Positions 19,483 through 32,232 of a stretch of 64,000 nucleotides of DNA are shown here, piece by piece. The position numbers and the translations under genes are program-made. This DNA is from Micromonospora siamensis (GTDB lineage: Bacteria > Actinomycetota > Actinomycetes > Mycobacteriales > Micromonosporaceae), in contig NZ_LT607751.1 of the NCBI RefSeq assembly GCF_900090305.1, positions 3,410,001-3,474,000 on the forward strand. Direction: 5' to 3'. Position 1 is the stretch's first letter. Each line of letters starts with the position of its first letter. Below the pieces are notes generated by a model. It was given only the letters and a program-made list of their open reading frames with translations, had not been told where the DNA came from and made no database searches.

Positions 19483-20424
19483 TCAGGCGTCGACGAGGCC
19501 GGCCAGCTCCTGCCCGTGGGGCGGGTCCGCGCCGGGTCGCCCGCAGGTGATCGCCGCGACCCGGGTCGCGTGTTCCAGCACCGCGTCCAGCCCGGCGGCG
19601 TCGAGTGAACCCACCGCCGACGGCGTTGCGGCCGCGACCTCCACCAGCGCGTCGAGCAGGCCGGCGGTGAAGGCGTCGCCGGCCCCGACGGTGTCCACCA
19701 CGGTCACCCGCCGGGCCGGGTGGTGCCGCTGCACTCCGTCGGCCGTGACCGCGTACGAGCCGGCGGCGCCGCGGGTCACCACGACCAGGCGTACCCCGAG
19801 GGCGATCAGGTGGGCGGCGGCCTGCTCCACGGTGGCGCCGGGCAGGAGCCAGGCCAGGTCCTCGTCGCTGGCCTTGACCAGGTGCGCGTACCGGGCCAGG
19901 GCGAGCAGCCGGGCCCGGGCAGCGGCCGGGTCGTCGAGCACCGCCGGCCGGACGTTCGGGTCGAGGCTGACCAGCACCCGCCCGGCCGCGTGCTCCCGAG
20001 CCAGCAGGTCGGCGACCACGTCCGCCCCGGGCGGCAGCAGTACGGCCAGCGAGCCGGTGTGCAGCACCTCGGTGCCGGCCGGCAGCCCGACCAGTTCGTC
20101 GCTGGTCCACTGCCAGTCGGCCGTCCCGGTGAGGTAGAAGTCGTACTCCGCCGTCCCGGTGGGGTTGAGGGAGACCACGGCCAGGGTGGCCGGCCGGTCG
20201 TCGGCGACGGCGTGCGTCAGGTCGACCTTGTTGGTGTCCGCGTGCGCGCGCAGCCGGCGGCCGAACGCGGTGCGGGAGAACCGGGCCAGCATGGCGGTGG
20301 GCCGGCCGAGCCGGGCCAGCCCGACCGCCACGTTGAGCGGACTGCCGCCGGGGTGGGCGGCGAACAGATCGCCACCCCCGGACGGGGCGAGGTCCACCAC
20401 GGCCTCGCCGAGCACGGTCAGCAC
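19483..20424 (-). CDS. PfkB-family carbohydrate kinase (fructokinase)
   Basis: 313 residues. PfkB signatures are clear: GGSPLNVAVGLARLG (about 26-40) and the C-terminal DTVGAGDAFTAGLLDAL with the catalytic aspartate and anion hole. The sequence pattern fits fructokinases, and the genome context of fructan hydrolases supports ATP-dependent phosphorylation of fructose as the last step of the locus. It begins 3 bases after the stop of the GH32 gene, so the two are one operon. Confidence 0.9.
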   Translation of the reverse strand: MLTVLGEAVVDLAPSGGGDLFAAHPGGSPLNVAVGLARLGRPTAMLARFSRTAFGRRLRAHADTNKVDLTHAVADDRPATLAVVSLNPTGTAEYDFYLTGTADWQWTSDELVGLPAGTEVLHTGSLAVLLPPGADVVADLLAREHAAGRVLVSLDPNVRPAVLDDPAAARARLLALARYAHLVKASDEDLAWLLPGATVEQAAAHLIALGVRLVVVTRGAAGSYAVTADGVQRHHPARRVTVVDTVGAGDAFTAGLLDALVEVAAATPSAVGSLDAAGLDAVLEHATRVAAITCGRPGADPPHGQELAGLVDA

Positions 20425-20427
20425 GGC

Positions 20428-21531
20428 TCAGGCCCCCGCCGTGACCGCGTCGGCCGGCGTACCCGTGGAGGGCGCGCTGTCGGCGGCGGCCGTGGTGTCG
20501 TCGGCCCGGGTCCGCGCGCCGGCCCGGGCCGGGTCGGGGGCGACGTCGCGACGGCCGTGCACCGAGTACGGGGTGCCGGGCTCGGCGTCGCCGAGCAGCA
20601 CCGTGCCGTCGGCGGTGACCCGCACCGGGATCGGGTCGCTCAGCTCGCCGACGAACCGGCCCTGCTCGTCGTGGTTGAGGAAGGCCAGCAGCTGCCACTC
20701 GCCGGCGGCGTCACGCACCAGCCGGCCGCTGTAGAGGCTGTCGTCGGTGAGCCGCTGCGCCCGGGTGACGTCGAACGGGCCGAGCAGCGAGTCGCCGGGG
20801 ACCGCCCAGACGCCGCAGGCACGGGCGTCGCGGCAGCGCTCGGCGAGCTGGTCGTGCAGGCAGGAGAAGATCAGGATCGGCCGGCCGTCGACGATCTCCA
20901 CCTGGGGCACCTCGAGGTGACCGAAGCCGCTGCCCGGCGTGGTCACCGGCGGCTGTGCCTCCCAGTGCACCAGGTCGTGCGAGCGGGCGTGGGCGATGAC
21001 GCCACGGTCGTCGACCGGTCCCTCGTTGGCGCGGGCGGTGATCAGCATGTGCCAGCCGTCGCCCTCCGGGTCCGGGAAGACCCACGGATCGCGCCACGCC
21101 TCGTCCTGCCAGGTGGAGTCCCCGAACCGCTCGTACCAGCGACCGGCTGCGGTGAGCACCGGCGAGGTCGGGTGCCGCTCCCAGGTGACCAGGTCAGTGG
21201 AGGTGGCCAGTCCGATCCGCTGCACCAGGGCCCGTTCGGTGCTGCCCGCGCCGGTGTAGAACATGTGCCAGCGGCCGTCCGGCCCGGGCAGCACCGAGCC
21301 GGTCCAGGTGGCCACGTCGTCGAAGGCCGGCCGGTCGGCGGGGACCAGGGCGTCCGCGAGCTGTGTCCAGGTGCGCAGGTCGGTGGAGACGGCGTGCCCG
21401 ACGCTGGCCCGGAAGTGCCGGCGGTCCGGGTCGCCGAGCGCCCGCGAGGCACGTAGGAAGAACAGGTGGTGGGTGTCGCCCTCGCGGGCGAACCAGAAGT
21501 CCCAGATCCAGGCGTCGGGGAGTCGCAGCAC
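20428..21531 (-). CDS. Cytoplasmic GH32-type beta-fructosidase
   Basis: 367 residues, GTG start with an AAAGGA SD. Five-bladed propeller enzyme: the nucleophile region PDAWIWDFWFAREGDTHHL at the N terminus, the transition-state stabiliser in EAWRDPWVFPDP, and an acid/base region near GHLEVPQVEIVDG. There is no signal peptide and no C-terminal beta-sandwich; instead the protein ends in a disordered Ala/Asp/Thr tail. It is short for GH32 and may prefer small fructo-oligosaccharides such as inulobiose released by the GH172 enzyme. Confidence 0.82.
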   Translation of the reverse strand: MLRLPDAWIWDFWFAREGDTHHLFFLRASRALGDPDRRHFRASVGHAVSTDLRTWTQLADALVPADRPAFDDVATWTGSVLPGPDGRWHMFYTGAGSTERALVQRIGLATSTDLVTWERHPTSPVLTAAGRWYERFGDSTWQDEAWRDPWVFPDPEGDGWHMLITARANEGPVDDRGVIAHARSHDLVHWEAQPPVTTPGSGFGHLEVPQVEIVDGRPILIFSCLHDQLAERCRDARACGVWAVPGDSLLGPFDVTRAQRLTDDSLYSGRLVRDAAGEWQLLAFLNHDEQGRFVGELSDPIPVRVTADGTVLLGDAEPGTPYSVHGRRDVAPDPARAGARTRADDTTAAADSAPSTGTPADAVTAGA

Positions 21532-21604
21532 GGTGGGTCCTTTACCTTCGGCGCCGCCCGGGGGCGGCGGGTGCGTCGAGGCCGCGGCTGCGGCGGGGGT
21601 ACGT

Positions 21605-21620
21605 CGGTACGGCCGTACCG
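21605..21620 (-). promoter_or_regulatory. 16-bp palindrome upstream of the GH32/fructokinase operon
   Basis: CGGTACGGCCGTACCG is a perfect palindrome 74 bases upstream of the GTG at 21531 and 48 bases beyond the stop of the LacI gene at 21668. It could be a repressor operator for the downstream pair or a terminator-like hairpin of the LacI gene. Confidence 0.45.
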
Positions 21621-21667
21621 GCGAGGGCCGGTCGGCGGTGGTGTGTGGCGGGGGTGGGGACCCGTCG

Positions 21668-22702
21668 TCAGCCGGGTGGGGCGGCGACCGACGCGCGCGT
21701 GACCAGCGGGCACGGCATGACGACCTGCCGCGCGGCGCGCCGTCGCGCCCCCTTGGGCTGGTTGAGCAGCTCGACCATGGTCTCCACGGCCCAGGCGCCC
21801 ATCTCGTAGTGCGGCAGGGCCACCGTGGTCAGGCCGGGGTGCAGCCCGTCCGCGATGAGCTCCTGGTTGTCGAAGCCGATCACCGACAGGTCGTCGGGGA
21901 TCCGCAGGCCGAGTTCGGCCGCCGCCCGGTAGGCGCCCATCGCCATCCGGTCGTTGAAGCAGAACAGGGCGGTCGGCCGCCGCGGGCGGGTCAGCAGTTC
22001 CCGGGCCGCCCGGTAGCCGCCGAGGGTGTCGGAGACCTCGGCGAGCACCAGGTCCGGCCGGTAGGGCACCCCAGCCTCCCGCAGCGCCTCCTGGTAGCCC
22101 AGCAGGCGGCCGCGGGTGGCGGGGATGTCGTCGACGTTGGTCACGAAGCCGATCCGCCGGTGCCCCCGGTTGAGCAGTTCCCGGACGGCGACCCGGCCGC
22201 CACCGATCTCGTCCGGCACCACCGAGGGCAGGCTGGGGTCGGTGCTGGCGGCGTCGAGCAGCACCACCGGCATCGGCCCCAGCTCGTCGGGGACCTGTAC
22301 GACCCGGTGGTACATGGTCGCGTAGAGCACCCCGTCGACCCGGTGCTGCGCCAGCGCCTGGATCTCCCGCCGCTCGACCTGCGGGTCGCCGCCGGTGGTG
22401 AGCAGCATGAGCACCCAGCCGCGGGCCGAGGCGGTCTCCTGCGCGCCGAGGATGATCCGGCCGGCGTGCGGGGTGGTGGCGATGACGTCGCTGAGCAGGC
22501 CGAGGGTGTGCGAACGTTGCAGCCGCAGCCCCCGGGCCAGCCCGTTGGCCGCGTAGCCGAGCTGTCGGGCCGCCGACTCGACGCGTTCGCGGGTCTCCGG
22601 ACTGACCCGGGTGCCGGACTTGTTGTTGAGCACGTGGGACACCGTGGTCACCGAGACGCCCGCGGCCGCGGCCACGTCCCGGATGCTCACCTTGGATCCC
22701 AT
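21668..22702 (-). CDS. LacI-family repressor of the fructan locus, paralogue A
   Basis: 344 residues. The N-terminal HTH SIRDVAAAAGVSVTTVSHVL is followed by hinge ANGLARGLRLQRS, then the effector domain with GLLSDVIATTPHAGRIILGA and the C-terminal CPLVTRASV. It shares these effector-domain blocks with the LacI protein at 27223-28248, so they are paralogues, but the recognition helices differ. It sits between the GH172 and GH32 genes. A fructose-derived ligand is likely. Confidence 0.92.
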   Translation of the reverse strand: MGSKVSIRDVAAAAGVSVTTVSHVLNNKSGTRVSPETRERVESAARQLGYAANGLARGLRLQRSHTLGLLSDVIATTPHAGRIILGAQETASARGWVLMLLTTGGDPQVERREIQALAQHRVDGVLYATMYHRVVQVPDELGPMPVVLLDAASTDPSLPSVVPDEIGGGRVAVRELLNRGHRRIGFVTNVDDIPATRGRLLGYQEALREAGVPYRPDLVLAEVSDTLGGYRAARELLTRPRRPTALFCFNDRMAMGAYRAAAELGLRIPDDLSVIGFDNQELIADGLHPGLTTVALPHYEMGAWAVETMVELLNQPKGARRRAARQVVMPCPLVTRASVAAPPG

Positions 22703-22774
22703 CAGCTCATCACCGCATCACTCGGCTGGGGTCGGTCGTCCGGAAAGGACGGCCGGCCAACGGTATCGGACCGG

Positions 22775-23902
22775 TCACTCGTCCCACAGGCCGTGCTCGG
22801 GCCAGCGGCGCGGCAGCCGCTCGGCCACCGGCGGCAGCTCCGGCAGCGGCTTGTGCGGGTGGTGCTGGTACCAGTACGCCACCGAGGAGAAGTCGTTGCC
22901 CTGGTCGTTGGCGTGCCCGTGCTCGATCGTCACCTTGATGGACTTCGAGAAGCGCACCGGGTCCTCGATGTGGAACCGGTACATGCTCCACAGGCCGAAG
23001 TGCTCCTGCGGGCTGCTGGCCAGGCTGATGCCGTGGTACGGCCCGGCGTACGCGCCGCTGGGGAAGCCCCACGCCGCGTTGAAGTAGTCCTCGGTGCCGG
23101 TGCCGTGCAGCGACGGCGGCCACTGCTCCCCGTCGATGAAGATCATGTCGTCGCCCTCGCCCGGCCAGGTGTACGGCTGGTTGGAGGCGTTGTGGTTGTC
23201 GATGCTCAGCACGCAGCCGACGTAGTGGCCCGCCCCGCCCTCGGCGTCGAGGATGACGTAGTTGTCCTCGCCGGTCAGGTTGACCCCCGGCAGGTCCCAC
23301 GGCGCCGGCACCTCACCGGGAGCGAGGCCGTTCGGCACCGGGGTGCAGGGCTTCTCCTGCCGGTAGTACGCGTGGAAGTACGCCACGTCGTCCGGCTTCG
23401 CCTCGTCGGTCAGGTCGTAGTCGACGTAGTAGAACAGGTTCTCGATCGGCATGTCCGACTCGTTGCGGATGACGATCTTCGCGCTCGTGCCGAACGGCAT
23501 CGGGAAGTACGAGTTCATCGCGGCGGCGAACGGGCCCTTCGGGCCGCGACGCGGGCCGAACACCATGCTCAGCGGCAGCGACACGTAGTGCGTGCAGGTG
23601 GCGTGCCCGACGCCGAAGAAGTCGCCGAGCGGGCTGCGGACGCTCGGGTTCTCCTCGCCGTCCCAGTACATCTCGATGACCAGCTTGCGCAGGTACTTCT
23701 CGGAGTAGCAGCGGGTGGTCAGCCAGATGTGCTCGATCACGCCGGTGCCGGTGATGTCGGCCAGCACGTGGGTCTCGCCCGGCGGCACGACGGCGAAGTC
23801 GCGGTTCCCGCCGGTGCGGTCCCAGCTCGACTCGCGCTTGGAGCGACCGGCCTTGACCCGGGTGAGGCCCGCCAGCGGGCTGGTGGGGCGCCAGAACGAC
23901 AT
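22775..23902 (-). CDS. GH172 (DUF2961) difructose-dianhydride hydrolase
   Basis: 375 residues, no signal peptide. DUF2961 is recognisable from RKLVIEMYWDGEENPSVRSP and GDFFGVGHA near the N terminus, FPMPFGTSAKIVIRNESD in the middle, and DDMIFIDGEQWPPSLHGTGT with EDYFNAAWGFP in the C-terminal half. The founding GH172 enzyme hydrolyses alpha-fructofuranosyl linkages of difructose dianhydride I; other members act on D-arabinan. A GH91 inulin fructotransferase in the same locus makes dianhydride hydrolysis to inulobiose the best prediction. It lies 37 bases after the second permease gene. Confidence 0.88.
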   Translation of the reverse strand: MSFWRPTSPLAGLTRVKAGRSKRESSWDRTGGNRDFAVVPPGETHVLADITGTGVIEHIWLTTRCYSEKYLRKLVIEMYWDGEENPSVRSPLGDFFGVGHATCTHYVSLPLSMVFGPRRGPKGPFAAAMNSYFPMPFGTSAKIVIRNESDMPIENLFYYVDYDLTDEAKPDDVAYFHAYYRQEKPCTPVPNGLAPGEVPAPWDLPGVNLTGEDNYVILDAEGGAGHYVGCVLSIDNHNASNQPYTWPGEGDDMIFIDGEQWPPSLHGTGTEDYFNAAWGFPSGAYAGPYHGISLASSPQEHFGLWSMYRFHIEDPVRFSKSIKVTIEHGHANDQGNDFSSVAYWYQHHPHKPLPELPPVAERLPRRWPEHGLWDE

Positions 23903-23939
23903 GGTGTTTCCTTTCGGGGGTTGTGCGGGGTGGAGCGGG

Positions 23940-24776
23940 TCAGCCCTTGACCGCGCCGAGGCTGAGCCCGGCGACGATGCGGCGCTGCAGCAGCAGCGTC
24001 AGCACCACCGCGGGTACGGAGTAGAGGGTCGCCAGGGCCGTCATCGGGCCCCAGTCCAGGCCGAACTGGCTCTGGAAGTTGGCGATCGCGATCGGGGTGG
24101 TCTGTGCCCGTACCGAGGTGAGCAGCAGGGCGAAGAGGAACTCGTTCCAGGAGGCGAGGAAGGCGAAGATGGCGGTGACCGCCAGTCCGCCGGATACCAC
24201 CGGCAGGATCACCCGCAGCAGGGCGGTGAACCGGCCGCAGCCGTCGACCAGGGCGGCCTCCTCGATCTCCCGGGGCATCCCCTCGAAGAAGCTGGCCAGC
24301 AGCCAGATCGACAGCGGCAGCGCCACCGTTGTCTGGGCCAGCGCCAGCCCGGTCGGGGTGTCGGTGAGCCCGGCCGCGCCGAGGATGGTGACCAGCGGGA
24401 TGCCGATCGCCACGGCCGGAGCCATCCGGACCAGCAGCGAGCCGGCCATCAGCAGCCGCCCGGCGCGGGTCCGGTAGCGGGTGATCCCCCAGGCGGCCGG
24501 GATCGCCAGGGCCATCGACAGCAGCGTGGCGATGACGGCCGTGCTGACGCTGTTGATGAACGAGGCGGTGACGCCGGGCCGGTTGAGCGCGGTGAGGTAG
24601 TTGTCCAGGGTGAACCGCTGCGGCAGCACGGTCGGCGGCACCGCGATGGCGTCGACGGCCGGCTTGAACGAGGTGAGCACCAGGTAGACGAAGGGGAAGC
24701 CGTAGACCACCACGACGGCGACGGCGGCGGCCCAGAGCAGCCCGGTCCTGACCCGCGCGGCGAGCAGGTGCGACAT
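23940..24776 (-). CDS. ABC sugar transporter permease (MalG type)
   Basis: 278 residues with six predicted helices. The EAA loop EIEEAALVDGCGRFTALLRVILP contacts the ATPase. The C terminus ends RRIVAGLSLGAVKG, a MalG hallmark. Its ATG shares one base with the stop of the first permease gene, so translation is coupled. It belongs to the CUT1 importer of the fructan locus. No ATPase gene is nearby; an unlinked MsiK-type ATPase is expected. Confidence 0.93.
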   Translation of the reverse strand: MSHLLAARVRTGLLWAAAVAVVVVYGFPFVYLVLTSFKPAVDAIAVPPTVLPQRFTLDNYLTALNRPGVTASFINSVSTAVIATLLSMALAIPAAWGITRYRTRAGRLLMAGSLLVRMAPAVAIGIPLVTILGAAGLTDTPTGLALAQTTVALPLSIWLLASFFEGMPREIEEAALVDGCGRFTALLRVILPVVSGGLAVTAIFAFLASWNEFLFALLLTSVRAQTTPIAIANFQSQFGLDWGPMTALATLYSVPAVVLTLLLQRRIVAGLSLGAVKG

Positions 24777-25738
24777 CAGGACTCCTTGCCCGGTCGCCAG
24801 ATGGTCAGCACCGCGACCATCGCGACCACCATCATCACGATCATGAACAGGGTGCTGGTGGCGGCGGCCGTGCCGGGGTCGTTGTAGCTGACCATCGTCC
24901 TGTAGATGGTCAGGCTCAACGTCTCCGACGCCGACTGCGGCCCACCGTCGGTCTGGATGAGGATCACGTCGAACGCCCGGGCGGCGTCCACTCCCCGGAT
25001 GATCAGCGCCACCGCGATCACCGGCCGCAGCAGCGGCAGGGTCACGCTGACCAGGAGCCGCAGTCCGCGGGCGCCGTCGAGGCGGGCGGCCTCGTACAGG
25101 TCCGGCGGGATGGCCTGGAGGCCGGCGTAGAGGACCAGGGTCATGAACGAGGTGGTGAGCCAGATGTCCGGCAGGGCGACCGAGAAGAGCACCAGGTCCG
25201 GGTCGCTGAGCCAGGAGACGTCGCCCGGGTTGTCGAGGATGCCGACCCGGGTGAGCAGCTCGTTGACGATGCCCACGTTGTCGATCATCAGGAACCGCCA
25301 GAGCAGGCCGGCGACCACCGGCGCGATCATCAGCGGATAGAGGAACAGCGTCTGGAGGATCCGGGCCTTCGGGCCGAGCCGGTGGAACAGCAGCGCCACC
25401 GCCAGGCCGAGCACCAGCTCGGCGCTGACCACGATCAGGGTGTACGCCAGCGTCCGCCCGGCCGCCGCCCGGATCCCCGGGTCGGTCAGCGCGGTGAGGT
25501 AGTTGTCCACCCCGGCGAAGCTGCGTCCGTCGCCGAGCCCGGACCCGGTGTAGAGGCTGTCGACCACCAGCTTGACCAGCGGCCAGCCGACCAGCGCCAG
25601 CAGCACCACCGCGGCCGGCGCGGCGAGCAGGGTCGCGTACCCGGCGTCCGACAGCCCGCGGCGGGCCCGTCGCCCACCGGTCGGGGCCGGGGTACGCGGG
25701 GCGCTCCGCGGTGGTGCCGCCTGCGCTGTCGGGCTCAC
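24776..25738 (-). CDS. ABC sugar transporter permease (MalF type)
   Basis: 320 residues from a GTG at 25738, whose codon overlaps the stop of the binding-protein gene by 4 bases. A polar N terminus is followed by six predicted helices, with the EAA loop DLYEAARLDGARGLRLLVSV near residue 220 and FMTLVLYAGLQAIP before it. It pairs with the MalG-type protein to form the importer for the fructan-derived sugar. Confidence 0.93.
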   Translation of the reverse strand: MSPTAQAAPPRSAPRTPAPTGGRRARRGLSDAGYATLLAAPAAVVLLALVGWPLVKLVVDSLYTGSGLGDGRSFAGVDNYLTALTDPGIRAAAGRTLAYTLIVVSAELVLGLAVALLFHRLGPKARILQTLFLYPLMIAPVVAGLLWRFLMIDNVGIVNELLTRVGILDNPGDVSWLSDPDLVLFSVALPDIWLTTSFMTLVLYAGLQAIPPDLYEAARLDGARGLRLLVSVTLPLLRPVIAVALIIRGVDAARAFDVILIQTDGGPQSASETLSLTIYRTMVSYNDPGTAAATSTLFMIVMMVVAMVAVLTIWRPGKES

Positions 25739-27057
25739 TTGACGATGCCCTCGATCTGGGTGCGGGCGGCCTTGAGCAGGGCGGCGTAGTCCGCGCCCGG
25801 GGTGAGTGCCTTCTGGATCGTGGGCACCAGCACGCTGTCGACGATCCGCTGCCAGTGCGGGCTGGCCGGGCGCGGCCGGGTGGCGCTCGCGTTGAGGGTG
25901 GACAGCAGCGGACCGAACGACTCGAAGCCGGGCTTTTCCGCGTACGACTGGTAGGCGGACTTGCGGGCGGCCAGGCCGAGGCTGGTCTCGATGCTCAGCG
26001 CGTTGTTGTCGTAGGCGGCCTTGATGAACTGCTTGGCCAGGTCGGCCTTGGCGCCGCCCTGCGGGGCGGACAGGTACCACGGCCCGGGGATGCCGGCGAC
26101 CCCGGCGGTGCCGCCGATCATCGGCGCGGCGCCGACCTTGCCGGCCACCTTGGCGTCGGCGGGAATCTGCCGGTACGCGTGCGCCCAGAACCGGGTCATC
26201 GCGGTCTGGCCCTGGTTGAACAGGTTCTGCGCGGCGCTCCAGTCGGTCTGCGCGGCGCCGGCCGGGGCGACCTTGTGCTTGTTGTTGAGGTCTGCGTAGA
26301 AGGTCAGCGCGGCCAGGTGCTGGGCGTTGTCGACGATGACGTTGCCGCTGTCGTCGAGGACCACGCCGGGGGAGCCGGCCTGGAGCACGTGGGCCAGCCA
26401 CTCGGTCTCCACCGCGCCCTTGACGTCGGTGCCGTAGAGCTTCTGGCCGGGCCGGGTGAAGAAGACGGCGATGTCGGTGAACTGCTGCCAGGTGGTGGGC
26501 GGGGCGAGGGGGTAGCCGTACTTCTTCTCGAAGGCGGCCTTCTCCTTGGGGTCCTCGAAGAGGTCCTTGCGGTAGAACAGGATCTCGCTGTTGGTCCAGA
26601 CCGGCATGCCGATGAACTTGCCGCCGGACTGCGCCTCCTGGACCAGCGCCGGGAACAGGTCGTTCTTCACCTCGGCGGTGAACAGGTCGTCGAGCGGGGC
26701 GAGCTTACCGGCCAGCAACGGGATCCAGACTGCGTCGACGGCGCACACGTCGAACGACGCGCGGTTGCCGGACAGCTCGCTGGTCAGCCGGTTGAACAGC
26801 CCGTCGTAGGGGAGCTCGACCAGGGTGACGGTGGTGCCGGTGTCCTGCTTGAACTTGTCGGCCACGGGCTGGAGCTCGATCTTGCCGCCGCCCTCGCAGG
26901 CGACGGTGAGGGTCTTGTCGTCGCCGGAGCCGCCGGCGGCGGTGCTGCCACCGGCGCCGCAGCCGGTCGTGCCGAGCAGCGCCGCCGCGCCGGCGCCGAC
27001 GCCCAGGCCGAGGAAGCCACGGCGGGGCCAGCCGCTGGTTGTCGCGCGAGATGCCAT
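25735..27057 (-). CDS. ABC transporter sugar-binding lipoprotein
   Basis: 440 residues from the ATG at 27057 (CGGAGC SD). The signal region carries RRGFLG (Tat-like) and a lipobox LGTTGC near residue 32, so it is a membrane lipoprotein. Family 1 extracellular solute-binding features follow: VPYDGLF-like loop ELPYDGLFNRL, FDVCAVDAVWIPLLAGKLAPL, GMPVWTNSEILFYRKDLFEDP and GPWYL. The expected ligand is a difructose dianhydride or a short fructo-oligosaccharide. First gene of the operon behind a repressed promoter at 27137-27198. Confidence 0.92.
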   Translation of the reverse strand: MASRATTSGWPRRGFLGLGVGAGAAALLGTTGCGAGGSTAAGGSGDDKTLTVACEGGGKIELQPVADKFKQDTGTTVTLVELPYDGLFNRLTSELSGNRASFDVCAVDAVWIPLLAGKLAPLDDLFTAEVKNDLFPALVQEAQSGGKFIGMPVWTNSEILFYRKDLFEDPKEKAAFEKKYGYPLAPPTTWQQFTDIAVFFTRPGQKLYGTDVKGAVETEWLAHVLQAGSPGVVLDDSGNVIVDNAQHLAALTFYADLNNKHKVAPAGAAQTDWSAAQNLFNQGQTAMTRFWAHAYRQIPADAKVAGKVGAAPMIGGTAGVAGIPGPWYLSAPQGGAKADLAKQFIKAAYDNNALSIETSLGLAARKSAYQSYAEKPGFESFGPLLSTLNASATRPRPASPHWQRIVDSVLVPTIQKALTPGADYAALLKAARTQIEGIVK

Positions 27058-27136
27058 GGTTCTGCTCCGTTCGAAGGGGTGGTCCGGGCGCGTGGGGGCG
27101 CACGCCGGAGCGTGTGGTGGGTGGTCGGTGAGGCGG

Positions 27137-27168
27137 TTGCCAAAACCTTTTGGCAAAAGCTTTTGGCA
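27137..27168 (-). promoter_or_regulatory. Overlapping LacI-type operators of the ABC/GH172 operon
   Basis: TGCCAAAACCTTTTGGCA (27138-27155) is an 8+8 palindrome, extended by one base on each side. It overlaps a second perfect palindrome CAAAAGCTTTTG (27154-27165). CTTTTGGCA is thus repeated in tandem. Two repressor dimers could bind side by side just after the predicted -10 box. Confidence 0.8.
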
Positions 27169-27169
27169 G

Positions 27170-27198
27170 AGCGTAGGGGCGGTTTCCGTGTCGGTCAA
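27170..27198 (-). promoter_or_regulatory. Promoter of the ABC/GH172 operon
   Basis: On the minus strand, TTGACC (27193-27198) and TACGCT (27170-27175) are separated by exactly 17 bases, matching a housekeeping sigma-70-type promoter. The operator cluster follows immediately, so a bound repressor would cover the transcription start. Confidence 0.65.
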
Positions 27199-27222
27199 GG
27201 GTCGAGCCGGTAAATTCCTGCG

Positions 27223-28248
27223 TCAGACCGAGGCGCGGGAGACCAGCGGGCAGGGCAGCCGGGTCGCGCCGGGCGGCAGCGGGGTCGCACCGACCAGATG
27301 TTCGACCGCCCGCCGGCCCATCTCGCGGTAGGGCAGGGCCACCGTGGTCAGGGCCGGTCGCAGGTGGGCCGCGATCTCCTCGCGGTTGTCGAAACCGATC
27401 ACCGCGACGTCCCCCGGCACCCGTAGACCGCGCTCGCGCAGCAGGTCGTACGCGCCCATCGCCATCCAGTCGTTGGCGCAGAACAGCGCCGTCGGTGGCT
27501 CGGGCAGGTCCAGCAGCGCGGCGGCCCCGGTGTGGCCGGACTCCTGCCACCAGTCACCGACACGGATCAGCCGCTGGTCGACCTCGACGCCCGCCCCGGC
27601 CAGCGCGTCCCGCCAGCCGGCCAGTCGGCCCGCCGAGGCCGGGTAGTCCGGCGGGCCGTTGACCAGGCCGATCCGCCGGTGTCCCGCCGCGAGCAGGGTG
27701 TCGGTGGCGAGCCGCCCGCCCTGCCGCTCGTCGGGCACCAGCGCCGGCAGCCGGCCGTCGGCCTCGACGCAGTCCACCAGCACGGTCGGCGGCAACCCGG
27801 CCACCTCGCCGTCGAGGGACACCTCACGGTGGTGATCGGTGGCCAGCATCAGCCCCTCGACCTGCCAGCGGGTCATCGCGGCGGCGGCGTCCAGCAGCGA
27901 GCCGGCGCCACTGTCGGTGTCCACGATGAGCAGGGTGCGACCGTGCCGCGCCGCGGCCTCCTGCGCGCCGGCGATGATGCCCACCGCGTACGGGGTGGTG
28001 GCGATCGCGTCGGTGACCAGGCCGAGTACGCCGCTGCGCCGGGAGCGCAGACCCCGGGCCAGCTCGTTCGGCCGGAAGCCGAGCTGTTCCACGGCCGCCC
28101 ACACCTTGGCCCGGGTGGCCGCCGGGATGGCCACGCCGGTGACGCCGTTGACCACGAACGAGACGGTCGTCCGGGACACGCCGGCCAGCCGGGCCACGTC
28201 CTGCTGTGACGGTCGGGTCGGGCGCTCACTCGTCACCCGGCCGAGCAT
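27223..28248 (-). CDS. LacI-family repressor of the fructan locus, paralogue B
   Basis: 341 residues. HTH SQQDVARLAGVSRTTVSFVV is near residues 14-33, the hinge is RPNELARGLRSRRS, and the effector domain includes GLVTDAIATTPYAVGIIAGA and ends CPLVSRASV. It is transcribed away from the inulin fructotransferase genes, sharing the divergent region that holds the palindrome TAACACGTGTTA. The start could be the ATG at 28248 or the GTG at 28236; neither has a strong SD. Likely sensor of a fructan-derived sugar. Confidence 0.92.
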   Translation of the reverse strand: MLGRVTSERPTRPSQQDVARLAGVSRTTVSFVVNGVTGVAIPAATRAKVWAAVEQLGFRPNELARGLRSRRSGVLGLVTDAIATTPYAVGIIAGAQEAAARHGRTLLIVDTDSGAGSLLDAAAAMTRWQVEGLMLATDHHREVSLDGEVAGLPPTVLVDCVEADGRLPALVPDERQGGRLATDTLLAAGHRRIGLVNGPPDYPASAGRLAGWRDALAGAGVEVDQRLIRVGDWWQESGHTGAAALLDLPEPPTALFCANDWMAMGAYDLLRERGLRVPGDVAVIGFDNREEIAAHLRPALTTVALPYREMGRRAVEHLVGATPLPPGATRLPCPLVSRASV

Positions 28249-28267
28249 ATCGGTAGGCGTCGGTGTC

Positions 28268-28306
28268 TTGACAGCGCGCGGACCGGGCGAGTACTAACAC
28301 GTGTTA
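28268..28306 (+). promoter_or_regulatory. Promoter and LacI operator of the inulin fructotransferase unit
   Basis: TTGACA (28268-28273) and TACTAA (28292-28297) have an 18-base spacer. The perfect 12-bp palindrome TAACACGTGTTA (28295-28306) overlaps the -10 box. Binding there should block this promoter and possibly also the divergent LacI gene. The operator differs from the one in front of the ABC operon. Confidence 0.75.
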
Positions 28307-28383
28307 ACGCCGGGTTGCCCGGCTGTTTCGCACTCTCCCCGACCGACCCGGCCCCCACCGGCACCCCGCACCAGGAGAGTTCC

Positions 28384-28572
28384 ATGGACCCTCGCCAACT
28401 GCCCCGCCGTACCCTGCTGCGGGCGCTCGCCCTCGGCGTCGCCGCCGTCCCCGCGGCCCTCGGCGCGACACCCGCCGCCGCCGCGCCGCCCGCGGCCCCC
28501 GGTGCCCGCGCCGACGCCCCCACCGTCGCCGCCGGGCGCCCCTCGCACGCCCACCTCATCGGCGTGCTCTGA
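28384..28572 (+). CDS. Tat signal-peptide micro-ORF preceding the fructotransferase
   Basis: 62 codons with an AGGAGAG SD. The start MDPRQLPRRTLLRALALG has a twin-arginine-like motif, a hydrophobic core and an Ala-rich cleavage region (ATPAAAAPPA). About 20 residues follow, then a stop. It looks like the signal peptide missing from the fructotransferase that starts 37 bases later in the +1 frame. It may be a frameshifted N terminus, a sequencing error, or a genuine separate peptide. Strong G/C third-position bias up to the stop argues that it is translated. Confidence 0.6.
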   Translation: MDPRQLPRRTLLRALALGVAAVPAALGATPAAAAPPAAPGARADAPTVAAGRPSHAHLIGVL

Positions 28573-28609
28573 CCTCACCGGCCCCGCCCATCGCCTGCAA
28601 GGGAGTCCC

Positions 28610-29815
28610 ATGTCGACCGTGTACGACGTGACCACCTGGACCGTCCCCGGCAACCCCGCCGTCACCTGCTGGACCGACGTCGGCGCGGTGATCAACAGCA
28701 TCATCGCCGCCGTGAAGGCCGGCCAGCCCGACCAGAACAGCAAGCCGGGAGCGGTGATCTACCTGCCGCCCGGCGACTATCCGCTGAAGACCCGGGTCGA
28801 GGTGGACGTCAGCTACCTGACCATCAAGGGCTCCGGGCACGGCTTCACCTCCTCCAGCATCCGCTACAACTCCGGCGACACCTCCTCCTGGTGGGAGATC
28901 TGGCCCGGCGGCAGCCGGATCCGGGTGCAGAACACCGACGGGCGGGCCGAGGCGTTCCGGGTCGCCCGCACCGGCAACCCCCGGCTCAGCTCGGTGGTCT
29001 TCGAGAACTTCTGCCTCGACGGGGTCGGCTTCACCCCCGACCAGAACTCGTACCGCAACGGCAAGGTCGGGATCCTGGTCGACACCGCCAACGACGCCTT
29101 CCGGATCGAACGGATGGGCTTCGTCTACCTGGAACGCGCCCTGGTCGTCCGGGACGCCGACGCGCTCAGCGTCAGCGACAACTTCATCGCCGAGTGCGGC
29201 AACTGCGTCGAGCTGATCGGAAGCGGTCAGGCGTCCAAGGTCACCGACAACCTGATCGGCGCCGGCTACGTCGGCTACTCGCTCTTCGCCGAGGGACACG
29301 AGGGGCTGCTGGTCACCGCGAACAACATCTTCCCCCGGGGGAAGAGCGCCATCCAGTTCAGGAACACCAACCGCTCGTCGATCACCGCGAACCGGCTGCA
29401 CGGCTTCTATCCCGGCATGATCACCTTCGAGGGGTTGAACAAGGAGAACCTGGTCAGCGGCAACCACCTGCGCCGGGAGGCCGAGCCGTGGGGGCCGATG
29501 CAGCCGTACGGCAACGGCCGCGACGACCTGTTCGGCGTGATCCAGCTGCGCGGCGACAACAACCTGGTCACCGGCAACCTGATCGCCTGGTACGTCGACC
29601 CGGCCAAGATCACCCCGGCCGGCGCCACCCCGACGATGATCCTGGTCGCCTCGGGCGCCAGCAACGTGATCGCCACCAACCACGTGGTGGCCAACGTGGG
29701 CGTGAAGACCGTCGTGCTCGACGCCACCACCACCGGCACCCGGGTGCTGGACAGCGGCACCGCCGCGCAGTTCCAGGCGTACACCGGCAGTTACGCCTTC
29801 CGGGCCACGCCGTGA
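28610..29815 (+). CDS. GH91 inulin fructotransferase (difructose-anhydride forming)
   Basis: 401 residues. A right-handed beta-helix enzyme that cleaves inulin by intramolecular fructosyl transfer, releasing difructose dianhydrides without water. YDVTTWTVPGNPAVTCWTDV, GAVIYLPPGDYPLKTRVEVD and YLTIKGSGHGFTSSSIRY match known Arthrobacter enzymes. Asp190 (VSDNF) and Glu201 (NCVEL) have the D-x10-E spacing described for the catalytic pair. The frame has no signal peptide; its own SD (AAGGGAG) and ATG are good. GH172 linkage suggests the product is DFA I rather than DFA III. The next gene starts inside its stop codon. Confidence 0.9.
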   Translation: MSTVYDVTTWTVPGNPAVTCWTDVGAVINSIIAAVKAGQPDQNSKPGAVIYLPPGDYPLKTRVEVDVSYLTIKGSGHGFTSSSIRYNSGDTSSWWEIWPGGSRIRVQNTDGRAEAFRVARTGNPRLSSVVFENFCLDGVGFTPDQNSYRNGKVGILVDTANDAFRIERMGFVYLERALVVRDADALSVSDNFIAECGNCVELIGSGQASKVTDNLIGAGYVGYSLFAEGHEGLLVTANNIFPRGKSAIQFRNTNRSSITANRLHGFYPGMITFEGLNKENLVSGNHLRREAEPWGPMQPYGNGRDDLFGVIQLRGDNNLVTGNLIAWYVDPAKITPAGATPTMILVASGASNVIATNHVVANVGVKTVVLDATTTGTRVLDSGTAAQFQAYTGSYAFRATP

Positions 29816-32232
29816 GCCGGCGTACCCGCACGGGGGTGTGGCTCGCACTGGTCGCGACCGTGCTGGCGCTGCTGCCGGGACTGCCCGCAGCGGCCGGCAC
29901 GCCCGGCGACTATCCCGAGTTCCCCTACCCGGCGACCGGCTACACCGAGCCACAGCGTGGGCAGTTCCACTTCAGCCCCCGGGCCGGCTGGATGAACGAC
30001 ATCAACGCCCCGCTCTGGCACAACGGGCAGTACCACCTGTTCTTCCAGCACAACCCGCACGGGCTGACCTGGGACACCATGCACTGGGGGCACGCCACCT
30101 CGCCGGACCTGGTGCACTGGACGCAGAAGCCGATCGCGCTGGAACCGGGCGTCCACCCCGGTGATCTGTGGTCCGGCGGCGGCGTCGTCGACACCGCCGA
30201 CACCGCCGGCCTCAAGACCGGCGCCGACGCCCCGATCGTGGTGTTCACCGGCACCAACGGGGTCAGCCTCGCCTACAGCAACGACGGTGGCCGCACCTTC
30301 CAGAACTACGACGGCGGGCGTCAGGTGCTCGCCCTGCCCGCCAACAGCCGCGACCCGAAGGTCTTCTGGCACGCCCCCACCGGGCGGTGGGTGATGGTGG
30401 TCTGGACCGACAACGGCGGCAACGCCGCCCTCATCTACACCTCGCCCAACCTGCGCGACTGGACCTGGCGCAGCCGGTACGCCGCGGACTGGCTGCTGGA
30501 GTGCCCCGACCTGTTCGCCCTGCCGCTGGACGGCACCGGCCCCACGAGATGGGTGCTCACCGACGCCAGCGGCGAGTACGTCGTCGGTGGCTTCGACGGC
30601 GCCACCTTCACCGCCGACTCGCCCACCCCGCAACGGATGGACCAGGGCGCGAACAGCTACTTCGGCACGTTCTACGCCGGACTCACCTTCCAGAACATGC
30701 CCGACGGCAGGGTCGTGCAGATGGCCTGGCAGCCCGGTAACACCGGCAAGGGCTGGACCGGCAACGCCACCGTCCCGGTGCAACTGGGCCTGCGCAGCTA
30801 TCCGGAGGGGGTCCGGCTCACCCGGTTCCCGGTGGCGGAGCTGGCCACCCTGCGCACCAGCAGCCAGAGCTGGGCCGACCGCACGGTCACCGCCGACCCG
30901 GCCACCGACCCGCTCGTCGGCCTCACCGCCGACACCTACGAGCTGGTCGCCGAGTTCGACACCGCCGCCAGCACCGCCAGCCGCTTCGGCTTCGACCTGC
31001 ACCGGCGGGCCGACGGCAGCTACGACCGGCGGGTCGCGTACGACCGTGCGGCGCAGACCCTGTACGGGGCACCGCTGGCCCCGGCCGGCGGACGGGTGAA
31101 GATGCGGATCCTCGTCGACCGCGGGCAGTTGGAGATCTTCGGCAACGACGGGAAGCTGTCCTACACCGACAACGTCGCCTTCGACTCGTCCCCTGGCAGC
31201 CAGGGGCTACGGCTGTTCGCCGAGGGCGGCGGGGTGCGGGTGGTCTCGTTGCAACTGCACCGGATCGGCTCCACCTGGGGGCAGGGCGAGTCCACCCTGG
31301 AGGGCAACCTCGCCGGGCCGTGGACCACTGCCGGCGGCACCTGGACCGACGTGACCGGCGGCAAACGCGGCGAGGCCATCGGGGACGGCTTCTACCTCAG
31401 TGGCAGCACCGCCGGGGACGTCGCGTACGAGGCCGACGTGCGGCTGGAGACCGCGGCGGCGGCCGGGATCACCGTCCGGGCCAGCGCCGACGGGTCCGCC
31501 CACTACACCGCCAACGTCGACGCCGCCGGGCTGGTCAAGCTCTGGCGACCGGGTCGGGACATCGCGGTGTACCCGACCCCGGTCAGCCGGGGGCGGACCT
31601 ATCACCTCAAGCTGGTGGCCAGCGGGTCGAGCCTGAAGGTCTACCTGGACCACGGCGCCACCCCGGTGATCGACGCGACCGACACCGCGTACGCCACCGG
31701 CCGGCTCGGGGTCAACGTCTTCGCGGGGGCGGCGGTGGCGCAGAACGCCCAGCGGGACGCCGCGGGGTTCCGCACCAACCTCGGTCAGCGGTGGAACCCG
31801 GTGGCGGGGGAGTGGACCGTGCCGACCGGCGGGCTGCGCGGGCGGCGGATGGACAACGGTTTCCGGCTCAGCGAGCGCACCGCCGGTGACCTGACCCTCA
31901 CCGGGGACGTCCGGGTGCTCGCCGGCCGGGCCGCCGGGCTGACCTTCCGGGCCAGCACCGACGGCGCCGCCCACTACACCGTCAACGTCGACACCGACGG
32001 GCTGGTCAAGCTCTGGCGGCCGGGCCGGGACATCGCCACCTGGCCGACGACGATCGTGCCGGGGCGCACGTACCGGTTGCGGGTGGCCGCCACCGGGCCG
32101 CGGATCCAGGTCTTCTTCGCCGGTGGCGCGACGCCGGTCATCGACGTCGCCGACGGCACGTACGCCACCGGGCGGGTCGGGGTGAACGTCTTCGACTCGG
32201 TCGCCGAGTTCCAGGACGTGACGATCGGCTGA
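29812..32232 (+). CDS. Secreted GH32 fructanase (levanase/inulinase) with tandem beta-sandwich domains
   Basis: 806 residues, GTG start overlapping the previous stop by 4 bases (GTGA). A Sec signal peptide (VWLALVATVLALLPGLPAAAG) precedes a full GH32 domain: nucleophile Asp63 in GWMNDINAP, Asp181 in SRDPKVFW, and acid/base Glu230 in LLECPDLF. The GH32 C-terminal sandwich reaches about residue 480. Two homologous domains follow (about 485-641 and 660-805), sharing AHYTxNVDxxGLVKLWRPGR and ATGRxGVNVF. They are probably CBM66-like fructan-binding modules. Likely exo-acting on extracellular fructan beside the fructotransferase. Confidence 0.92.
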   Translation: MSRRTRTGVWLALVATVLALLPGLPAAAGTPGDYPEFPYPATGYTEPQRGQFHFSPRAGWMNDINAPLWHNGQYHLFFQHNPHGLTWDTMHWGHATSPDLVHWTQKPIALEPGVHPGDLWSGGGVVDTADTAGLKTGADAPIVVFTGTNGVSLAYSNDGGRTFQNYDGGRQVLALPANSRDPKVFWHAPTGRWVMVVWTDNGGNAALIYTSPNLRDWTWRSRYAADWLLECPDLFALPLDGTGPTRWVLTDASGEYVVGGFDGATFTADSPTPQRMDQGANSYFGTFYAGLTFQNMPDGRVVQMAWQPGNTGKGWTGNATVPVQLGLRSYPEGVRLTRFPVAELATLRTSSQSWADRTVTADPATDPLVGLTADTYELVAEFDTAASTASRFGFDLHRRADGSYDRRVAYDRAAQTLYGAPLAPAGGRVKMRILVDRGQLEIFGNDGKLSYTDNVAFDSSPGSQGLRLFAEGGGVRVVSLQLHRIGSTWGQGESTLEGNLAGPWTTAGGTWTDVTGGKRGEAIGDGFYLSGSTAGDVAYEADVRLETAAAAGITVRASADGSAHYTANVDAAGLVKLWRPGRDIAVYPTPVSRGRTYHLKLVASGSSLKVYLDHGATPVIDATDTAYATGRLGVNVFAGAAVAQNAQRDAAGFRTNLGQRWNPVAGEWTVPTGGLRGRRMDNGFRLSERTAGDLTLTGDVRVLAGRAAGLTFRASTDGAAHYTVNVDTDGLVKLWRPGRDIATWPTTIVPGRTYRLRVAATGPRIQVFFAGGATPVIDVADGTYATGRVGVNVFDSVAEFQDVTIG

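Follow-up and report, generated by a model that had tools for sequence, protein, structure and literature searches.

The closest described systems for using inulin through cyclic difructose dianhydrides (DFAs) concern DFA III, in Arthrobacter and Blautia (PMC4640833, PMC11538131), and DFA I, for which a pathway has already been proposed in S. davawensis (PMC8605356). As the compounds are named in PMC8605356 and PMC11538131, they differ in the alpha-fructosyl bond, which is made to O3 of the partner in DFA III and to O1 in DFA I. Here we describe a locus at positions 19483-32232 of a 64,000-nucleotide stretch of the Micromonospora siamensis genome (contig NZ_LT607751.1; the whole stretch is called the window), in which a GH91 inulin fructotransferase (IFTase) stands near a GH172 protein of a branch that we call type B, set apart from the family's founding enzyme, alphaFFase1. 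We consider it likely that the locus encodes an inulin-to-DFA III pathway in which type-B GH172 opens the ring and a small open reading frame (ORF) carrying a twin-arginine translocation (Tat) signal serves to export GH91.

In this pathway, exported GH91 would turn inulin into DFA III extracellularly, as its kinship suggests. A binding lipoprotein and MalFG permeases would import the dianhydride. The cytoplasmic type-B GH172, a member of a family of retaining alpha-fructofuranosidases, would then open the alpha-(2->3') bond to give inulobiose, which GH32 would split, with the fructose phosphorylated by PfkB. Exclusion, partner changes and gene remnants suggest that type B would replace the GH91-family DFA III hydrolase at the opening step. 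The general scheme had been set out in an initial annotation of the DNA (conversion outside the cell to a dianhydride, import, opening by GH172, splitting by GH32), and the gene content supports it.

Relatives were sampled by scanning genome contigs with GH91 alignment A2 and keeping the best 80 of 332, which make up 78 loci. Among named relatives, those nearest to the window GH91 and GH172 come from Micromonospora. GH91 is rare in the order, with full-length matches in 3 of 397 genomes (the window's own included) and one short weak match, and it appeared in 4 of 394 genomes of the class sample; the counts given here therefore come largely from these top 80 of the 332 relatives, a sample biased towards window-like GH91. 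Sixty loci (L007-L066) carry an IFTase-type GH91, taken as at least 55% identity to the window GH91. Within 10 kb of that gene, 14 of the 60 have a type-B GH172 with 79-98% identity by high-scoring segment pair (HSP): L007, L008, L009, L010, L011, L013, L018, L030, L031, L032, L034, L035, L036 and L038. The linkage, for which the initial annotation had proposed a genome search, is thus not unique to this genome. In 42 of the 60 loci there is an additional GH91, which is of DFA III hydrolase type (about 47-52% identity to the window GH91), mostly with a related transporter. Neither partner was seen in the L012 locus, whose genome holds type B on another contig, or in L015, L024 and L066, which are short or end-of-contig pieces.

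Searches of the genomes gave the same division. With the window GH91 as query, all 15 of the other genomes that hold GH172-type loci gave IFTase-type GH91 and no DFA III hydrolase; the window genome, 6.25 Mb in a single contig, holds one GH91 gene and one DUF2961 gene. The hydrolase is therefore missing genome-wide here, as the initial annotation had noted for the locus, and it is lacking in 16 of 16 genomes with type B. With the window GH172 as query, an intact type-B gene was found in none of 38 genomes from the 42 hydrolase-type loci (all except those of L045, L050, L054 and L057; a 39th genome searched was that of L012). Type-B GH172 and the GH91 DFA III hydrolase are mutually exclusive in the genomes searched.

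Weaker GH172 matches occurred in nine of the 38 hydrolase genomes. Two are alphaFFase1-type genes without a stop (genomes of L051 and L049), and four are distant matches (39-43%), of which three contain a stop and the fourth, in the L044 genome, lies in two pieces without one. The other three are type-B-like remnants: the C-terminal 47 residues of a type-B GH172, located where the hydrolase gene ends in L027 (4666-4806; 83% to L030), 42 residues shortly after MalG in L063 (6031-6156; 71% to L018), and the first 32 residues directly after MalG in L059 (7461-7556; 62% to L030). The remnant search covered 63 loci and also gave a doubtful type-B piece in L081 (E 0.006). These remnants in hydrolase loci indicate that type B once stood there. 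The IFTases of L063 and L059 fall in the clade of solved DFA III-forming enzymes. Separately, hydrolase-type genes occur in L067-L084, some of them short loci, where no IFTase lies in the sequence fetched; many are from Enterobacterales, and these genomes are possible DFA III scavengers.

The GH91 tree (72 rows) also mixes the two partners. Partner labels on 59 rows require four changes; L015, L024, L045 and L066, on short or edge contigs, were left unlabelled, though L045 does carry a hydrolase-type GH91, and L012 was labelled GH172 with its type-B copy on a different contig. Kocuria L018 (GH172) nests within hydrolase-linked Micrococcaceae (support 97/91), five GH172-bearing Kribbella loci are sister to a mostly hydrolase-linked group, and GH172-linked L035 is sister to the clade with 2inu and 9j4i (96/92). 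The transporter trees likewise do not split the partners in two, with three changes for the binding protein and four for MalG; both are quick trees with flagged long branches. Forcing the GH172-linked IFTases into one clade (17 rows, a group chosen after the tree was seen) was rejected at p-AU 5.6e-46. An independent-pairs test carries no evidence, as its second trait was entered as the complement of the first.

The window GH172 (22775-23902, minus strand) has a DUF2961 domain (Pfam E 1.8e-83) and the conserved catalytic residues of the family, and its sequence bears out the initial annotation in showing no signal peptide; we predict a cytoplasmic DFA III hydrolase. Its best solved relative is 7v1v, the B. 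dentium enzyme alphaFFase1, with 44.8% identity over the printed residues of 7v1v. This is below the homologs in the set of PMC8605356, described there as over 47.45% identical. The catalytic pair and most -1 residues are retained, including counterparts of E270, E291, D292, W267 and W298. The +1 subsite is changed: in the window protein and seven other type-B proteins aligned, the insert of residues 65-95 with Glu85 is absent, Lys147 is replaced by Gly and Tyr187 by Phe. According to Table 2 of PMC8605356, Glu85 and Lys147 mutants kept activity on the pNP-arabinoside and had less than 5% on inulobiose; a Y187F mutant is given as retaining 30.7% of inulobiose activity (PMC8605356). Such a combination, the -1 site retained and the +1 site altered, would be expected because the bond goes to O3 in DFA III and O1 in DFA I. 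Type-B GH172 is probably a second DFA III-opening enzyme, unrelated to the first.

The window GH91 (28610-29815, plus strand; 401 aa) matches Pfam Beta_helix_2 of inulin fructotransferase (E 3.6e-34), has the solved relatives 2inu and 9j4i and gave a confident AlphaFold2 model (pLDDT 88.5). Counterparts of the catalytic D233 and E244 of 2inu are kept in its beta-helix, and the short insertions of DFA III hydrolase 5zky are absent (alignment A2), which marks it as an IFTase. Identity is 57.5% to 2inu, 56.5% to 9j4i, 54.5% to hydrolase 5zky and 51.0% to 8hsn; it is thus not nearer to 8hsn than to the DFA III-forming enzymes, and 8hsn departs from 2inu at seven of 13 active-site positions. In the tree it groups among IFTases linked to DFA III hydrolases. 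A Nonomuraea IFTase, BAN62836, is listed as DFA III-forming in Table 2 of PMC4640833, with 53.74% identity to the Bacillus snu-7 enzyme and 50.64% to the DFA I-forming S14-3 enzyme; the title of the reference given there for it mentions conservation among Nonomuraea species. Loci L010 and L011 are from Nonomuraea, with one GH91 per genome and a type-B GH172 in each locus, and the published IFTase is probably orthologous to theirs. From the identities, the tree with its linked partners and the DFA III-forming Nonomuraea enzyme, DFA III appears more likely than DFA I as the product of the window GH91.

AlphaFFase1-type GH172 has a different partner. Loci L103 and L104, from another genus (probably Streptomyces), carry an 8hsn-type GH91 with 74-75% identity to 8hsn; in the remaining genomes of that genus, GH91 is 72-79% identical to that of L103. 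The GH172 of this module is 60-64% identical to alphaFFase1 over residues 96-381, and the two genes lie about 0.4-8.5 kb apart in five of six genomes, the exception being G953, with only a GH91 fragment. Since the alphaFFase1 type pairs with 8hsn-type GH91, the DFA I model suits that module better. A plasmid search (131 records) returned only GH172 matches below 60% identity.

These results bear on the product named by the initial annotation, DFA I, with GH172 acting as a DFA I synthase/hydrolase as in S. davawensis. The window protein does belong to GH172, its catalytic pair and most of its -1 site are kept, a precedent has been published (PMC8605356), and the names that sources give to relatives point the same way. 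Yet type B lacks both the Glu85 insert and Lys147, which inulobiose activity requires in the mutants of PMC8605356, the alphaFFase1 type accompanies another GH91 type, the window GH91 sits among hydrolase-linked IFTases, and type B excludes the DFA III hydrolase while leaving remnants in hydrolase loci. The missing GH91 hydrolase had been taken as a sign of DFA I; given the exclusion, it points instead to GH172 replacing the hydrolase. We judge a DFA I pathway here unlikely. About equally improbable, in our estimate, is that type B acts on a wider range of alpha-fructofuranosides or on alpha-D-arabinofuranosides and that its link to DFAs is incidental. The solved exo-alpha-D-arabinofuranosidase 8ic8 matches the window GH172, the founding enzyme is itself described as having alpha-D-arabinofuranosidase activity (PMC8605356), named GH172 relatives span several phyla, and 4kq7 and 8ah3 also align without the insert. 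An incidental link does not fit the recurrence of type B in DFA loci or its exclusion of the DFA III hydrolase.

Several points weigh against a DFA III pathway. The window GH91 keeps 11 of 13 active-site positions of 2inu, with Q313 changed to H and F346 to M, and no GH91 active-site column (85% cut) splits GH172-linked from hydrolase-linked IFTases. Several close relatives are named 'DFA-I-forming' by their sources, apparently automatically, and these names were not used as evidence. Orthology with the Nonomuraea enzyme is argued from the title of a reference and from comparable identity values. The partner changes number only four, the genomes behind the exclusion counts are mostly drafts, and the specificity of GH91 or of the transporter could have shifted along with the partner. 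We take 8hsn to be DFA I-forming, its entry in the structure table saying just Fructotransferase. The S. davawensis DFA I module resembles the 8hsn/alphaFFase1 pair as judged from its published description. Finally, the founding GH172 enzyme is reported as active on DFA I and inactive on DFA III (PMC8605356).

The small ORF at 28384-28572 (plus strand), with 62 codons and its own Shine-Dalgarno-like stretch, encodes a Tat signal, an Ala/Pro linker and the tail HLIGVL. For GH91 itself, the start codon is ATG 28610, preceded by a separate ribosome-binding site, and no signal peptide lies in frame with it. A fused Tat-like signal is present in 16 of 63 IFTase genes and lacking in 47 (Tat-like here is a simple pattern, RR or KR and then a hydrophobic stretch). 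A tailed small Tat ORF precedes 41 of the 47 signal-less genes in a strict test and 44 when widened to include L019 and L064 (greater distance) and L012 (upstream region partly N). It precedes none of the 16 IFTase genes with a fused signal, none of 60 hydrolase genes and 19 of 4740 random places. Three signal-less IFTases lack it: the later copies of the tandem IFTases in L028 (8785-11203) and L034 (10007-12433), where the small Tat ORF stands at the first copy only, and the IFTase of L045, which has just some 260 bases of sequence before it. Fused and split signals require two changes on the GH91 tree, and the 8hsn-type genes of L103 and L104 are also preceded by a tailed ORF, ending IVGLL and IVGVL. 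Pfam models matched few of 28 small ORFs, and weakly (TAT_signal in two, TM_PetC in one); a profile search gave 26 proteins with E values of 1 or less, all hypothetical or unnamed. Two of these relatives, from Micromonospora NPDC048930 and Actinoplanes DH11, lie on contigs equal in length to those that carry GH91 relatives. The 28 ORFs form alignment A4, in which the L033 entry is shortened and its leading M placed at a non-start codon.

Tat signals can be supplied in trans, as by MelC1, the helper protein of the tyrosinase MelC2. The gene arrangement of such a Tat hitchhiker, a signal-less enzyme beside a partner with a Tat signal, is found here, and the small ORF is probably an in-trans export helper for GH91. 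It would probably lead the folded enzyme to the Tat translocase, gripping it by the conserved C-terminal tail, as its distribution and conservation suggest. Frameshift fusion of signal and GH91 was considered as a general route and excluded because the relative frames of the two genes vary and the stops do not fit. We regard it as unlikely that the ORF encodes a leader peptide or supplies the first half of a GH91 joined to it by frameshift. In the window and at some other loci, a +1 step at its stop would lead on into GH91, but the spacing spans all three frames, in 22 of 44 cases the GH91 frame closes before the small ORF ends, GH91 is served by a ribosome-binding site of its own, and the small ORF is missing wherever the GH91 signal is fused. 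The joint proposal, that type B is a second DFA III opener repeatedly swapped with the hydrolase and that Tat carrier peptides ending in [ILV]-x-G-[VLM]-[LIV]-COOH dock GH91, seems to us somewhat better than even on the sequences compared.

All genes named in the initial annotation are present, by Pfam and sequence, where it had placed them. On the minus strand, a PfkB sugar kinase (19483-20424; Pfam PfkB E 2e-42) is probably a fructokinase, its best NCBIfam similarity being to fructokinase, under the cut-off of that model. Next to it lies a GH32 beta-fructofuranosidase without signal peptide (20428-21531; Pfam Glyco_hydro_32N E 2.7e-16), a putative inulobiose hydrolase with a relative of 50-87% (best HSP) in some fetched loci and distant matches or none elsewhere. 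Also on this strand are a LacI-family regulator (21668-22702; Pfam LacI and Peripla_BP_3), permeases of MalG type (23940-24776) and MalF type (24776-25738; both Pfam BPD_transp_1), the binding lipoprotein (25735-27057, ATG 27057; Pfam SBP_bac_1 E 7.6e-33), which has a Tat-like start (MASRATTSGWPRRGFLGLGVG...TGC), and a second LacI-family regulator (27223-28248; Pfam LacI and Peripla_BP_3). Where present among L007-L066, the MalG-type permease is 57-94% and the lipoprotein 51-84% identical (best HSP). On the plus strand, a GH32 (29812-32232; Pfam GH32N E 2e-54, and GH32C) begins with GTG 29812, which overlaps the stop codon of GH91, and may break down the ends of fructans as well as the short fructans that GH91 leaves. 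It had been annotated as secreted with tandem binding-like domains: a signal peptide is seen in the sequence, and the C-terminal repeats were judged by eye, only the last reaching a Pfam model (3keto-disac_hyd).

A palindromic operator-like site, CTTTTGGCAAAAG (27147-27159), lies between the binding protein gene and the adjoining LacI gene, an exact match (two strand matches against 0.08 expected). Its core, TTTGGCAAAA, occurs within 650 bases upstream of GH91 in 7 of 16 GH172 loci and 23 of 45 other loci; in the window, the site with this core precedes the binding protein rather than GH91. Near the GH91 promoter, ACGTGTTAACG (28299-28309), which also occurs upstream of the small ORF of L007, is a possible LacI-regulator site, though its frequency is within chance expectation.

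In the titles and abstract openings that we searched, which cover part of the literature, we found no publication assigning DFA III to GH172 and none on a carrier ORF of GH91. Our analysis offers a likely substrate for a GH172 branch for which the literature searched gave no function. It predicts another way of opening DFA III, which is described as an industrially made sugar (PMC5448860). It also offers a test of whether the +1 subsite controls the choice of DFA I or DFA III. The small Tat ORF, if a carrier, would represent a very small adaptor used in nature to export folded enzymes, and would explain why the DFA I-forming S14-3 enzyme is described as extracellular while its gene is described as having no signal-peptide structure (PMC5448860).

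Compared with the described systems, the locus most resembles inulin-to-DFA III conversion in Arthrobacter and DFA III degradation in Blautia: uptake, opening to inulobiose and GH32 are alike (PMC4640833, PMC11538131). In Arthrobacter, a GH91 IFTase likewise works outside the cell (PMC4640833, PMC11538131), and the Arthrobacter loci that we fetched contain a homologous ABC transporter. The ring is opened by a second GH91, a DFA III hydrolase, in the Arthrobacter and Blautia pathways as published; in the window, with GH172 in the hydrolase's place, type B would probably do this. The three-stage DFA I pathway of S. davawensis also draws on GH91, GH172 and GH32 in one genome (PMC8605356). Its GH91 is described as making DFA I and its GH172 as 51.4% identical to alphaFFase1 (PMC8605356), against 44.8% for the insert-less window protein. 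AlphaFFase1 itself, the B. dentium DFA I synthase/hydrolase, shares with the window GH172 its family and the five named residue counterparts; unlike it, the window protein has no 65-95 insert, with Gly for Lys147 and Phe for Tyr187. As in MelC1-MelC2 and other Tat hitchhikers, the Tat signal is carried not by the exported, folded enzyme but by its partner; here the partner is a peptide of about 50-80 residues made up of a signal, a linker and a short tail.

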